The notes beneath the pieces were generated by a model. That model did no database searches. It was given only the letters and a program-made list of their open reading frames with translations, and had not been told where the DNA came from. The translations under genes were made by a program, and so were the position numbers. 36,426 nucleotides of DNA, taken from positions 1 to 36,426 of the forward strand of contig SVUG01000017.1 of assembly GCA_015063385.1 (NCBI GenBank). Direction: 5' to 3'. Shown in pieces: positions 32,454 to 36,426 of the stretch (position 1 is its first letter; every line of letters starts with the position of its first letter). This stretch comes from Oscillospiraceae bacterium. Lineage in GTDB: Bacteria; Bacillota; Clostridia; Oscillospirales; CAG-272.

Positions 32454-33272
32454 TTAATCTCCTTGTCTCATAGTTGCCTTGTATTCGCTCGGTGGCATAC
32501 CGTATTTTGCGGAGAACACCTTTGAAAAATAGGATTGGTCTGAAAAGCCCGTTTCCGCAGCAATCTCGTTTATGTTCATACTACCCTCAATAAGCAGATA
32601 TATCGCACGCTCAAGTCTTGCCTCGGTTATATAAGTATTAACGGTAATACCGTATTTTTTCTTAAAGGTGGTAAGCAGGGTAGATTTTGAGCATTGAAGC
32701 TCGTCACATATATCCTTGATTACGAACTTTTTTTGCAGATTCTCGCTGATATATGCACGTGCTAATTCCGCCACACTGGGCTTTGCAACCGGCACGGCGT
32801 TTGAGAGGGTTAGATATTGGGCACAAATGGTCATTATTTTAAGATAAGATTCGGTCATATCAGCACTGATTTTTGGAATTTTTTCAGCTATTCTGCTTTC
32901 CCTGCGTCCCAAAAGCGTGCTTAGTCTATCTTCGGCAAGTTGCGCCTGTTCCTCGGTTTCACATATTTGCCCCATCATAAGAAATCCTGTTAATGCACCG
33001 AAGTTGTAAAGCGGACTTACGGCCTCGGTGAGCCCAAATCGACATTTATAAATATGCGTTTTTTTGGCATCGAGCGCCGCCTTGCAGGCGAGCTTGTCAC
33101 ATTCTCGGCATTTTTTGTGCTCCTCCTCAATTCCGTTAACCTGCTTGCAAAACGGAAGTCGCTCCGCAGGATACGCTGCTATCTCCTCGTGACCTACACC
33201 GTGAAGCGAAACGCGAAAGCCGGTTATTTTGTGAAGCTCGCAGAGAACCTCTGTAATCTCCTGTTTATTCAT
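32454..33272 (-). CDS. PocR-domain AraC family regulator
   Basis: 272 aa. The N-terminal half resembles the PocR sensor domain, with cysteines and His in FCKQVNGIEEEHKKCRECD and the YKCRFGLTEAVSPLY signature, a region suited to ligand or metal binding. The C-terminal ~100 residues are an AraC HTH pair (CSKSTLLTTFKKKYGITVNTY; AAETGFSDQSYFSKVFSAKYG, ending PPSEYK). The start at 33272 follows CGGAGTTTTTT; a Met at 33302 lacks a site. It leads the yhaO-yhaN operon and is divergent from the ROK-NahK gene, with overlapping promoters. Likely target: the amino-sugar kinase operon. Confidence 0.85.
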   Translation of the reverse strand: MNKQEITEVLCELHKITGFRVSLHGVGHEEIAAYPAERLPFCKQVNGIEEEHKKCRECDKLACKAALDAKKTHIYKCRFGLTEAVSPLYNFGALTGFLMMGQICETEEQAQLAEDRLSTLLGRRESRIAEKIPKISADMTESYLKIMTICAQYLTLSNAVPVAKPSVAELARAYISENLQKKFVIKDICDELQCSKSTLLTTFKKKYGITVNTYITEARLERAIYLLIEGSMNINEIAAETGFSDQSYFSKVFSAKYGMPPSEYKATMRQGD

Positions 33273-33325
33273 AAAAAACTCCGAATTTGTAAAAACATTC
33301 AAAATATTGTGCTATTCTACAAAAT

Positions 33326-33354
33326 ATTATACTATTTTACCTTGAAATTGTCAA
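33326..33354 (-). promoter_or_regulatory. Promoter of the PocR/AraC-yhaO-yhaN operon
   Basis: Perfect TTGACA-N17-TATAAT on the minus strand. Its -35 lies in the spacer of the divergent promoter. Confidence 0.82.
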
Positions 33355-33370
33355 GATGTTAAAGTATAAT
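33342..33370 (+). promoter_or_regulatory. Promoter of the ROK-NahK-nagB operon
   Basis: TTGAAA-N17-TATAAT on the plus strand, interlocked with the divergent promoter so that both cannot be occupied by polymerase at once. Confidence 0.8.
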
Positions 33371-33406
33371 ATATTAAGGAAAATACTTTATTCTTATGGA
33401 GATGAA

Positions 33407-35470
33407 ATGAGCTACTGCATAGGCATTGATCTTGGCGGCACAAATATAGCCGCGGGAATAGTTGACCTTAAAGAAAAGAGAATAGTCAGAAAATCGCGTA
33501 TCAAAACTCGTGCACCCCGTCCGTGCGAGGAAATATCCGAGGATATCTTTGAGCTTTGCAAAAAGCTCGTATCTTTTGAGGGAATGTCACTTAAGGATAT
33601 GCAGTGGATTGGAATTGCCACACCCGGTATAGTCAAGGATGGCAAGGTTATTTACGCGAATAATCTTGGCTGGCAAAATGCGGAATTTGTGAAAATTATG
33701 CACGAGAAAACCGGTCTCCCGGTTATAATTGCTAACGATGCCAATACCGCAGCTTACGCAGAGGCAATATGGGGTGTCGGCGCTGAGTCGCGCACGCTCG
33801 TTGCCGTCACACTCGGCACGGGAGTCGGTGGTGGAATCGTTATTGACGGTAGAATCTGGGAGGGCATGAACGGATTTGCTGCCGAGCTTGGACACATCAC
33901 TCTCGACTCCGAGGGTAGAATTTGCAGCTGTGGAAAGCGCGGTTGCTTTGAGGCTTATTGCTCAGCTACTGCACTCGTCAGTGAGGCACGCCGAGTCATG
34001 CATCTCTATCCCAGTAGCGTTATGTGGGATATGTGCGGACGCGATGCTTCTAAAATGAACGGCTACATTCCCTTCAAGGCTTACGAGCAGGGGGATGAGG
34101 CGGCAACCGAGGTAATCGGGGACTTTATCAAATATCTTGCGATAGGTATTTCAAACATTATAAACATACTTCAGCCTGATGTGCTTTGCATCGGTGGAGG
34201 TATTTCAGCGGAGGGCGAGCTGCTTATGGCACCCCTGCGCAAGCAGATTGAGCGTATTTCCTTTGGAGTAAAAGAGGGCAGGACTAAGGTTGCTGCCGCA
34301 AAATTCTTGAATGATGCCGGCATTATAGGTGCGGCACTGCTGGGAAAGCAGGAGGAGATTACAAAGGTGAAAGAATATATTAAGACTATAATTGATAATT
34401 TTGATATAGACGGCGTGGTTATTGAATCTCATCCCTACGGTAACGGTCATATCAACGATACAAGATACATACTCGTAAAGAATGGCGGCGAGGATAAGGA
34501 GTACATTCTTCAGAAAATCAACAAGAACGTATTCAAATCCCCCCCTGCACTTATGGAGAACTATACCGGTGTCACCAAGTTCCTGCGCGATAAGATAATC
34601 AAGGCGGGCGGAGATCCTGACAGAGAAACCCTGAACGTCATTAAAACCAAAGCCGGTGAAAATTATTATCTTGACGAAAACGGTGATTATTGGCGTCTTA
34701 TCCTATTTGTGAAGGACAGCAAGAGCTACGACCTCGTCGAGCGCCCAGAGCAGTTCTACGATAGTGCGGTTGCTTTTGGTAATTTCCAGTATCTGCTCCG
34801 CGATTATCCTGCCGAAACGCTAAATGAGATTATCCCCAACTTCCACAACACTCCCGACCGTCTCAGGCTCTTCAAGGAGGCTGTTGCGGCAGACGTTTGT
34901 GCAAGACGCAGTGAGGTTGAAGCTGAGATTGCATTTGTTCTTGAACGCGAGGAGTTCGCACAAACTCTTGAGAGAGCGCACCGGGAGGGCAGACTTCCTC
35001 TAAAAGTCACTCACAACGACACCAAGCTTAACAATATTCTTTTTGATAAGTATACCGATGCGCCTCTTTGCGTCATAGACCTTGATACGATAATGCCCGG
35101 ATATTCGGTTAACGATTTTGGAGACTCTATCAGATTCGGTGCGACTACCGCACTTGAGGACGAGGTCGATCTTTCAAAGGTGAACTTTGATATTAACCTC
35201 TTTGAGCTCTATGTAAAGGGCTTTATCGAGGGCGCAAAGGGCGGTCTTTCCGAAGGCGAGCTCGAGATGCTTCCAATAGGTGCTATAATGATGACCTACG
35301 AGTGTGGCACCAGATTCCTCACCGACTATCTTCAGGGTGATACTTACTTCCGCACATCACGCAAAAATCACAATCTTGACCGTGCAAGAAATCAGTTCAA
35401 GCTTGTGCGCGATATGGAAGCAAATCTTCCTAAAATGCATGAAATTGTAAAGAAATATTCACATAATTAA
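33407..35470 (+). CDS. Fusion of a ROK sugar kinase and an N-acetylhexosamine 1-kinase (NahK)-like kinase
   Basis: 687 aa with two complete kinases. Residues ~1-315 are a ROK kinase: CIGIDLGGTNIAAGIVD, ANDANTAAYAEA (catalytic Asp ~111), TLGTGVGGGIVIDG and the zinc motif GHI...CSCGKRGCFE (~163-181), ending GIIGAALLGK. Only a short linker follows. Residues ~318-687 are a phosphotransferase-fold kinase resembling Bifidobacterium NahK: VVIESHPYGNGHINDTRYI, THNDTKLNNILFD (Brenner motif ~535) and CVIDLDTIMPGYSVNDFGDS (metal Asp). The frame is continuous. Followed 26 nt later by nagB. Inference: it phosphorylates amino sugars such as GlcNAc or GalNAc at O6 (ROK half) and at O1 (NahK half), feeding cell-wall or glycan salvage. 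The start at 33407 is set by ATGGAGATGAAATG. Confidence 0.88.
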   Translation: MSYCIGIDLGGTNIAAGIVDLKEKRIVRKSRIKTRAPRPCEEISEDIFELCKKLVSFEGMSLKDMQWIGIATPGIVKDGKVIYANNLGWQNAEFVKIMHEKTGLPVIIANDANTAAYAEAIWGVGAESRTLVAVTLGTGVGGGIVIDGRIWEGMNGFAAELGHITLDSEGRICSCGKRGCFEAYCSATALVSEARRVMHLYPSSVMWDMCGRDASKMNGYIPFKAYEQGDEAATEVIGDFIKYLAIGISNIINILQPDVLCIGGGISAEGELLMAPLRKQIERISFGVKEGRTKVAAAKFLNDAGIIGAALLGKQEEITKVKEYIKTIIDNFDIDGVVIESHPYGNGHINDTRYILVKNGGEDKEYILQKINKNVFKSPPALMENYTGVTKFLRDKIIKAGGDPDRETLNVIKTKAGENYYLDENGDYWRLILFVKDSKSYDLVERPEQFYDSAVAFGNFQYLLRDYPAETLNEIIPNFHNTPDRLRLFKEAVAADVCARRSEVEAEIAFVLEREEFAQTLERAHREGRLPLKVTHNDTKLNNILFDKYTDAPLCVIDLDTIMPGYSVNDFGDSIRFGATTALEDEVDLSKVNFDINLFELYVKGFIEGAKGGLSEGELEMLPIGAIMMTYECGTRFLTDYLQGDTYFRTSRKNHNLDRARNQFKLVRDMEANLPKMHEIVKKYSHN

Positions 35471-35496
35471 TTATTTTCGCAAGGAGAAATATAAAA

Positions 35497-36252
35497 ATGA
35501 TTAAATTTATTTGTGGAAAAACCAACGAGGAAGCAAGTGTTCTTGCTGCTAACGTTATGGCTGACGTAATTAAGGCAAAGCCCGATGCAGTGCTTGGCCT
35601 TGCAACCGGCTCCTCGCCCATCAATATGTACAAGGAGCTTATCAGAATGTGCTCCGCAGGCGAGATTTCCTTCAAGGCGGTAAAAAGCGTTAACCTTGAC
35701 GAGTACGTAGGACTCACTCCCGACCACGACCAGAGCTATGCTTACTTTATGAACGACAATCTTTTCGCTCATATAGATATTGACAAGGCGAACACAAATC
35801 TTCCCAGCGGACTCGCGGCAGACCCCGCCGCAGAGTGCAAGAGATACGACGCGGTTATCGAGTCTATGGGCGGCGTTGATATTCAGCTTCTCGGTATTGG
35901 AAACAACGGTCACATCGGCTTCAACGAGCCTGACACACATTTCCCTAAGACCACCAGCCTCGTTAATCTCACAGATTCTACTATTGATGCAAACTCTCGC
36001 TTCTTCGCTTCTCGTGACCTCGTACCCACCAAGGCGATTTCTATGGGTATCGGTCAGATTATGAATGCAAAAAAGGTTCTTCTCGTTGCATTTGGCACCG
36101 GCAAGGCAGAGATTCTTGAGAAGTCCTTCTTCGGCCCCGTCACCCCTGAGGTTCCTGCATCGATTTTGCAGTTCTTCAAGGGCGAGGTAGTAGTATGCGC
36201 TGACGAAGCAGCCCTTTCCGTAATCAAGGAAAAGCACCCCGAAGCACTTTAA
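35497..36252 (+). CDS. nagB: Glucosamine-6-phosphate deaminase
   Basis: 251 aa, typical length. Converts glucosamine-6-P to fructose-6-P and ammonia. Conserved: VLGLATGSSPINMYKEL, SVNLDEYVGL (catalytic Asp), LGIGNNGHIGFNEP (active-site His) and ISMGIGQIM. Preceded by AAGGAGAAATATAAAAATG. Pairs with the upstream kinase fusion; the deacetylase nagA that would link GlcNAc-6-P to this step is not in the window. No TTA, CTA or TCA codons, so it is likely highly expressed. Confidence 0.96.
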   Translation: MIKFICGKTNEEASVLAANVMADVIKAKPDAVLGLATGSSPINMYKELIRMCSAGEISFKAVKSVNLDEYVGLTPDHDQSYAYFMNDNLFAHIDIDKANTNLPSGLAADPAAECKRYDAVIESMGGVDIQLLGIGNNGHIGFNEPDTHFPKTTSLVNLTDSTIDANSRFFASRDLVPTKAISMGIGQIMNAKKVLLVAFGTGKAEILEKSFFGPVTPEVPASILQFFKGEVVVCADEAALSVIKEKHPEAL

Positions 36253-36272
36253 TTTTACTTAAAATAAAAACG

Positions 36273-36304
36273 AAAGCAGTCCGATTTTTTCGGACTGCTT
36301 TTGA
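36273..36304 (+). terminator. Terminator of the ROK-NahK-nagB operon
   Basis: AAAGCAGTCCG (36273-36283) / CGGACTGCTTT (36291-36301), an 11-bp stem with a 7-nt loop, followed by T. Confidence 0.88.
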
Positions 36305-36364
36305 TGTAAAAGAAATCCACGCGATAGTCGCGTGGTTCAGTGTAGGTTAACCGATGAAAAGAAT

Positions 36365-36426
36365 CCTCCGTTTGTGATATAATTAGAATTGACCTGCCAG
36401 TCGAAACTAAAAAACACAAACGGAGG
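36365..36426 (+). promoter_or_regulatory. Inverted repeat that would sequester the transposase ribosome binding site
   Basis: CCTCCGTTTGTG (36365-36376) is perfectly complementary to CACAAACGGAGG (36415-36426), so any RNA containing both arms hides GGAGG. Confidence 0.7.
36375..36383 (+). promoter_or_regulatory. Extended -10 promoter inside the inverted repeat
   Basis: TG-A-TATAAT with no clear -35. Transcription would begin near 36390, after the 5' arm of the inverted repeat, so the element's own RNA would lack that arm. Confidence 0.6.

Follow-up and report, generated by a model that had tools for sequence, protein, structure and literature searches.

A single open reading frame of 687 codons (33407-35470) from an Oscillospiraceae bacterium encodes, in this order, a complete ROK kinase, a link of a few residues and a complete NahK-type N-acetylhexosamine 1-kinase, without an internal stop codon. 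This conserved two-kinase fusion with its conserved internal start for the NahK half is real, and apparently it has not been described before. Among the literature matches listed, from a coverage that mostly lies outside subscription journals, no report of a ROK-NahK fusion was found, which agrees with the remark of a first-pass annotation that it knew of no described enzyme of this type. The enzymes are of known kinds; their combination appears to be new. The following features were located in the window, i.e. the whole stretch of 36,426 nucleotides that was analyzed:

32454-33302, minus strand: divergent gene of an AraC-type regulator with a PocR sensory domain (Pfam HTH_18 6.4e-24, PocR 1.1e-22)
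33342-33370, plus strand: predicted sigma70-like promoter directed towards the kinase gene, TTGAAA (33342-33347), 17 nt, TATAAT (33365-33370), 11 of 12 consensus bases
33407-34357, plus strand: ROK sugar-kinase domain, residues 1-317 (PF00480 1.6e-74; Foldseek TM 0.87 to the ROK glucokinase 3VGK)
34350-34369, plus strand: internal Shine-Dalgarno sequence AGGAGG (34350-34355), 11-nt spacer and GTG start (34367-34369, residue 321), with start codon and Shine-Dalgarno pairing kept in most fusions
34367-35470, plus strand: NahK-type N-acetylhexosamine 1-kinase domain, residues 321-687, 367 amino acids if made alone (phmmer 1.3e-87, Foldseek)
35497-36252, plus strand: nagB, glucosamine-6-phosphate deaminase (TIGR00502 277.5 bits, cut-off 236.9)
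36273-36301, no strand assigned: inverted repeat of 12 pairs 3' of nagB, a possible end of the operon transcript; weak, terminator-like on the minus strand only

The Met codon at 33407 is the likely start because it is preceded by GGAG (33398-33401), because homologues align from it, and because an earlier ATG at 33356, considered as an alternative, lies between the two hexamers of the promoter-like sequence TTGAAA-17-TATAAT. The first-pass annotation had proposed two kinases of unrelated folds with intact motifs and a short linker in one frame, adjoining nagB; Pfam, structure matches and an alignment confirmed this description. Furthermore, the frame proved to be continuous between the halves, with no stop codon at the joint in 14 of 69 genus genomes and in one genome of another genus. 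Fused homologues were 61-70% identical to the window's protein, and the motif residues of both halves were invariant in all 14 aligned fusions. An AlphaFold2 model built from 14 fused relatives had a mean pLDDT of 83.5 and a pTM of 0.55, and pLDDT dropped below 50 at two stretches, residues 153-157 and the joint at 316-322. In this model both domains are sound and their orientation to each other is undefined; hence, the structure prediction lent no support to the idea that the two active sites face each other. A fold search of the PDB revealed no chain covering both halves among the 50 best matches listed.

The N-terminal half is a full-length ROK domain: its residues 4-315 matched positions 1-293 of the 294 in the Pfam ROK profile with 251.5 bits (1.6e-74). 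In a sequence search the same residues matched glucokinase 2QM1 at 9e-54. The ROK glucokinase model TIGR00744 gave 227.8 bits, below its curated cut-off of 260.35, and the four NagK/NanK NCBIfam models listed gave 59-150 bits, all below their cut-offs of 283-551. A ROK paralogue in the same genome scored 237 bits, likewise under the NCBIfam glucokinase cut-off; the profile score gave no decision on the ROK substrate, both domains falling short. Residues D8, T12, N110, D111, E160, H163, C173, C175 and C180 are the same in each of the 14 aligned fusions, and C173, C175 and C180 are presumably the zinc cysteines. The sugar and phosphate residues were assigned by motif match, without structural superposition, to NagK residues named in the available text of PMC10031466. 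The ROK half would yield a sugar 6-phosphate, with GlcNAc, GlcN, ManNAc or glucose as candidate substrates. The narrower proposal that it phosphorylates N-acetylhexosamines at O6 found no support in this form, the best matches by both sequence and fold being glucokinases (2QM1, 3VGK).

The identity of the C-terminal half as NahK is strong. Residues 311-681 matched the solved NahK 4OCJ at 6.8e-88; phmmer aligned residues 6-361 of the 367-residue half with 4WH1 (1.3e-87), including a conserved HNDTKLNN motif; Foldseek returned TM values of 0.94-0.95 to 4WH1-3 at 41% identity, and Pfam APH matched residues 344-586 at 1.6e-11. The predicted activity is phosphorylation at O1, so that this half would produce HexNAc-1-phosphate.

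All but one of the 15 fusions have a start codon at the joint. Residue 321/322 is encoded by ATG in ten of them, by GTG in two, by TTG in two and by AAA in the remaining one, and ATG, GTG and TTG together account for 3.8% of all codons in the fused genes. GTG makes up 13% of the valine codons and TTG 2.2% of the leucine codons in these genes; both joint valines are encoded by GTG and both joint leucines, in two closely related rows, by TTG, which suggests that the codon is conserved and not the residue. The flanking linker residues are variable. Median Shine-Dalgarno pairing was -8.0 at the joint. For the 313 other start codons in frame it was -2.7 (Mann-Whitney p 2e-8), and for the main starts, two of which were misplaced, it was -6.5. 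Scored singly, 13 start-bearing fusions showed joint pairings from -5.1 to -11.7, and in 6 of 14 fusions scored the joint was the strongest-pairing in-frame start codon, unequalled by any other. Pairing was moderate in L032, L036 and L037 (-5.1 to -5.4), where 19-33% of their own other in-frame starts equalled it. Shine-Dalgarno-like sequences also precede start codons at the mid-ROK alignment columns 197, 198 and 274 and at column 678; at column 274 the pairing is nearly as strong as at the joint (mean -8.6 in 8 rows). The retained internal start predicts two products, and the cell probably makes the fused enzyme as well as NahK alone. The earlier reading had captured the fusion itself and had overlooked the retained start, the split relatives and the relatives without ROK.

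The fusion occurs in 14 of 69 genus genomes, including that of the window, and in one species (G565) of another genus of the same family, which came from a family draw of 395 genomes. A full-length match to the query was obtained in 16 genus genomes; two of them (G017, G074) carry TAA at the joint, leaving 14 fused. No further full-length fusion beyond the window's was found in sampled draws from the order (394 genomes, E cut-off 1e-110), the class (341, 1e-175) and the phylum (348, 1e-175). Mapping the range of the two-domain architecture, as proposed earlier, thus placed it in one genus with a single case elsewhere in the family and none in the wider sampled draws. According to named records, close relatives are metagenome-assembled Clostridia from deer, goat and sheep gut, one of them labelled Oscillospiraceae. 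Second copies of species already counted were dropped (L047, L048, L049, L111, L112), and L051 was treated as a duplicate of L041, with which it agrees in the sequence of the joint and in its contig coordinates. Genus loci were retrieved for the best 30 matches, and the weaker NahK-only genomes were checked in part for a ROK neighbour.

ROK and NahK are adjacent and separated by a stop codon in 8 of the 69 genus genomes, two of them in the same frame (G017, G074) and five in another frame (G030, G006, G059, G086, G062). In the eighth, G003, 75 nt lie between the ROK stop and the NahK start; it was counted as split since two stops were read at the joint, though an open-frame figure of 716 amino acids conflicts with this. 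In six of the eight split species the NahK Shine-Dalgarno sequence lies within the ROK tail codons (QEE, MEE, MED or QGG; DNA CAGGAGGAA etc.) and the NahK ATG follows 3-7 nt past the ROK stop, except in G059, where the two overlap; G086 and G003 have the Shine-Dalgarno sequence downstream of the ROK stop.

We favor, with moderate confidence, the reading that loss of a stop codon in a tight gene pair gave a bifunctional polypeptide plus free NahK from an internal start, both for N-acetylhexosamine use. The ancestral state would have been a tightly spaced ROK-nahK pair with the nahK ribosome-binding site inside the last ROK codons. Once the stop codon of ROK was lost, every ribosome starting at ROK would translate both kinases as one chain with a short flexible link, and the retained nahK start signal would allow internal initiation and thereby extra free NahK besides the fusion. 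NahK would supply HexNAc-1-phosphate and ROK a sugar 6-phosphate, of either an amino sugar or glucose; divergent AraC/PocR control and nagB would fit a locus serving N-acetylhexosamine use.

A NahK tree was calculated from 37 rows (15 fused, 8 split, 14 chosen NahK-only), with 10 of 34 inner branches unresolved and the NahK-only rows L018, L020 and L022 long-branched. Fused, split and ROK-less states were interspersed. Fused versus split required at least 5 changes, and the three states together required 12 as compared to a shuffled mean of 17. Fused versus all else required 9 changes, 3 of them forced by well-supported branches; the shuffled mean was 11.9 and a value as low was reached in 29 of 500 shuffles, so that the fused label is barely clustered. 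Such a pattern would be expected if both kinases worked, initiation at the start of NahK itself supplied the free enzyme and covalent joining as such served no function, with stop codons coming and going neutrally; we regard this as a possible explanation, though one of rather less than even probability. Against it stands the clade of L009, L035, L036 and L037 (100/98), which stays fused, has no split member within the rows of the tree and whose long branches suggest that the fusion is able to persist. Further all-fused clades are L006 with L031 and L005 with L033. Throughout these three clades the start codon persisted at the joint while neighbouring residues changed.

The divergent AraC/PocR gene is, from its position and domains, the likely regulator of the operon. 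A homologue is in place at 14 of the 15 fused loci and at 7 of the 8 split ones; of the 16 ROK-less genus loci examined, the 11 with closer NahK proteins (58-74% identical) have the upstream AraC/PocR gene and the five distant ones (47-52%) are without it. Besides the predicted promoter of the kinase gene, a site matching 12 of 12 sigma70 consensus bases on the minus strand (33354-33326) is directed at the regulator; the consensus scan of 33300-36426 found 12 sites as compared to 4.6 expected. The fusion stop and nagB are 26 nt apart. Within flanks of about 1.5 kb or less, nagB lies downstream at 11 of the 15 fused loci and at 6 of the 8 split ones, and it is also downstream in 5 of 16 ROK-less genus loci (L012, L014, L016, L046, L029); ROK-less L017 has nagB upstream on the other strand. 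Judging by the split and ROK-less relatives, NahK and the regulator, in many cases accompanied by nagB, look like the core, and ROK looks like an accessory. A plus-strand terminator 3' of nagB was discarded as a candidate: the scan gave the repeat on the minus strand only and found 3 sites where 3.0 were expected. Near the contig end, a short perfect hairpin CCACGCGA-TAG-TCGCGTGG (36317-36335) was observed, which the scan lists as well; it is possibly the end of a mobile element.

The genome of the window contains nagA above the curated cut-off, two GH20 matches and two phosphohexomutases, one of which is GlmM. A search for glmU gave partial matches and none above cut-off in this 88% complete genome. 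At another locus of the same genome (L138:3382-7090, G000:C26), nagA, a ROK-like kinase of 457 amino acids and phosphomannose isomerase are adjacent. The 457-residue protein, which is not the fused ROK, scored 23.6 bits against a Pfam ROK cut-off of 22.9 and is a candidate amino-sugar 6-kinase. In G034 (L139, G034:C218), which lacks a ROK gene at this locus, NahK, nagB, nagA and a GH20-type gene follow one another, which points to N-acetylhexosamines freed by hexosaminidase. GH112 matches were found in 0 of 69 genus genomes, the 14 control genomes being equally silent. Long frames in G008 and G010 considered as nagA fusions were dismissed: L136 shows a nagA-type ORF of 373 amino acids, and the long frame of G010 appears by eye to come from reading through a ROK gene in antisense.

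A 1-phosphate kinase amid 6-phosphate catabolic genes is a puzzle, since according to the available text of PMC9599254 (2022) no prokaryotic enzyme converting GlcNAc-1P to GlcNAc-6P has been described. The first-pass annotation had suggested a metabolic branch point in which ROK makes GlcNAc-6-phosphate and NahK makes GlcNAc-1-phosphate, the fusion setting catabolism against UDP-sugar salvage; as far as that source goes, GlcNAc-1P can reach UDP-GlcNAc through GlmU (PMC9599254). The adjoining nagB and the genomic nagA speak for this suggestion. However, the nearest solved relatives of the fused ROK are glucokinases, nagA has its own separate ROK-like neighbour, glmU did not exceed the cut-off, and the conservation of NahK with nagB in the five ROK-less loci suggests that NahK itself feeds catabolism. 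We consider the branch point, which has partial support, unlikely.

The order and family surveys revealed seven other one-frame NahK fusions: three with NagB, two with PglD and two with a ROK-like kinase. NagB-NahK occurs in three species of genus g46 (G398, G549 and G624, corresponding to L109 (1164-2966), L150 and L151); the partner was identified by Pfam on L109/G398 and assigned by matching frames for G549 and G624. PglD, a hexapeptide acyltransferase, is fused to NahK in two order genomes (G418, G376; L107:788-2671, L108:1270-2892). In G414 and G378 (L152, L153) NahK comes first, followed by a ROK-like kinase, apparently an independent two-kinase fusion of opposite order. This ROK-like part had no Pfam or NCBIfam match of its own and is 56% identical to the 457-residue protein adjoining nagA in the window's genome. 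A Shine-Dalgarno sequence with ATG was clearly kept at the joint in G549 (-8.7), the sole clear case among the seven. The PglD-NahK fusions have Shine-Dalgarno-like sites (-9.3) before GTG codons at least about 10 residues upstream of the aligned NahK starts, and in the NahK-first fusions a single moderate site (-6.4) lies within the end of NahK. With one clear case in seven and two unclear, retention of the start signal is not general to fused NahK genes; the strong PglD-NahK sites mean that the contrast between ROK-NahK and other fusions is not clean.

These joints bear on a simpler explanation, namely that one bifunctional protein is made and the internal start is a relic. The fusion product follows straight from the DNA, L008 has AAA and hence no start codon at its joint, and two of the three NagB-NahK fusions (L109/G398, L151/G624) lack the Shine-Dalgarno sequence and start codon at this place; the signal could be an undecayed relic if the fusions are recent and recurrent. 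However, a start-type codon kept in 14 of 15 ROK-NahK fusions, together with its Shine-Dalgarno pairing, renders this explanation improbable.

A HexNAc-1,6-bisphosphate is the priming cofactor of a phosphohexomutase, and it is conceivable, though very improbable, that the fused enzyme provides such a primer by adding phosphates at either end of a single amino sugar. The context cited for this idea is the pair of phosphohexomutases in the genome and the ROK-less relative with NahK, nagB and nagA; if it were true, the fusion and free NahK would constitute a built-in route from GlcNAc-1-phosphate via GlcNAc-6-phosphate to NagA and NagB. Finally, the idea that an assembly error or a frameshift merely makes two genes look joined can safely be dismissed, since the joint is uninterrupted in 15 species with invariant motif residues and relatives at the identities given above, even though the genome of the window and those of the named relatives are drafts or were assembled from metagenomes.

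Taken with its relatives, the fusion offers a natural series from two genes over overlapping genes to a fused gene whose second start signal is kept across deep divergence, and thus a tractable case for the question of whether bacterial gene fusions keep a dual output. In addition, the linkage of NahK to nagB, and in some relatives to nagA, makes the entry of GlcNAc-1-phosphate into catabolism directly testable.

The N-terminal half shares its fold and its zinc and catalytic motifs with the ROK glucokinases (2QM1, 3VGK) and with the ROK-type NagK and NanK. It differs from them in scoring below the cut-offs of TIGR00744 and of the listed NanK/NagK models and in bearing a second kinase. The ROK kinase of human GNE is C-terminal. 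According to the available text of PMC2742894, human GNE combines a UDP-GlcNAc 2-epimerase with a ROK ManNAc kinase, so that a ROK kinase likewise forms half of a bifunctional amino-sugar enzyme; its partner there is an epimerase, whereas it is NahK here. NagB-NahK of g46, from the same bacterial family, resembles the fusion in that NahK forms the C-terminal part behind another enzyme of amino-sugar metabolism, but its partner is a deaminase and the joint signal is missing in two of three species. NahK/LnpB of Bifidobacterium longum (4OCJ, 4WH1) matches the entire C-terminal half, the HNDTKLNN motif included. In B. longum, NahK is encoded by the standalone gene lnpB, which adjoins lnpA, the gene of 1,3-beta-galactosyl-N-acetylhexosamine phosphorylase, as stated in the available text of PMC9599254; here, in contrast, NahK is joined to ROK beside nagB.
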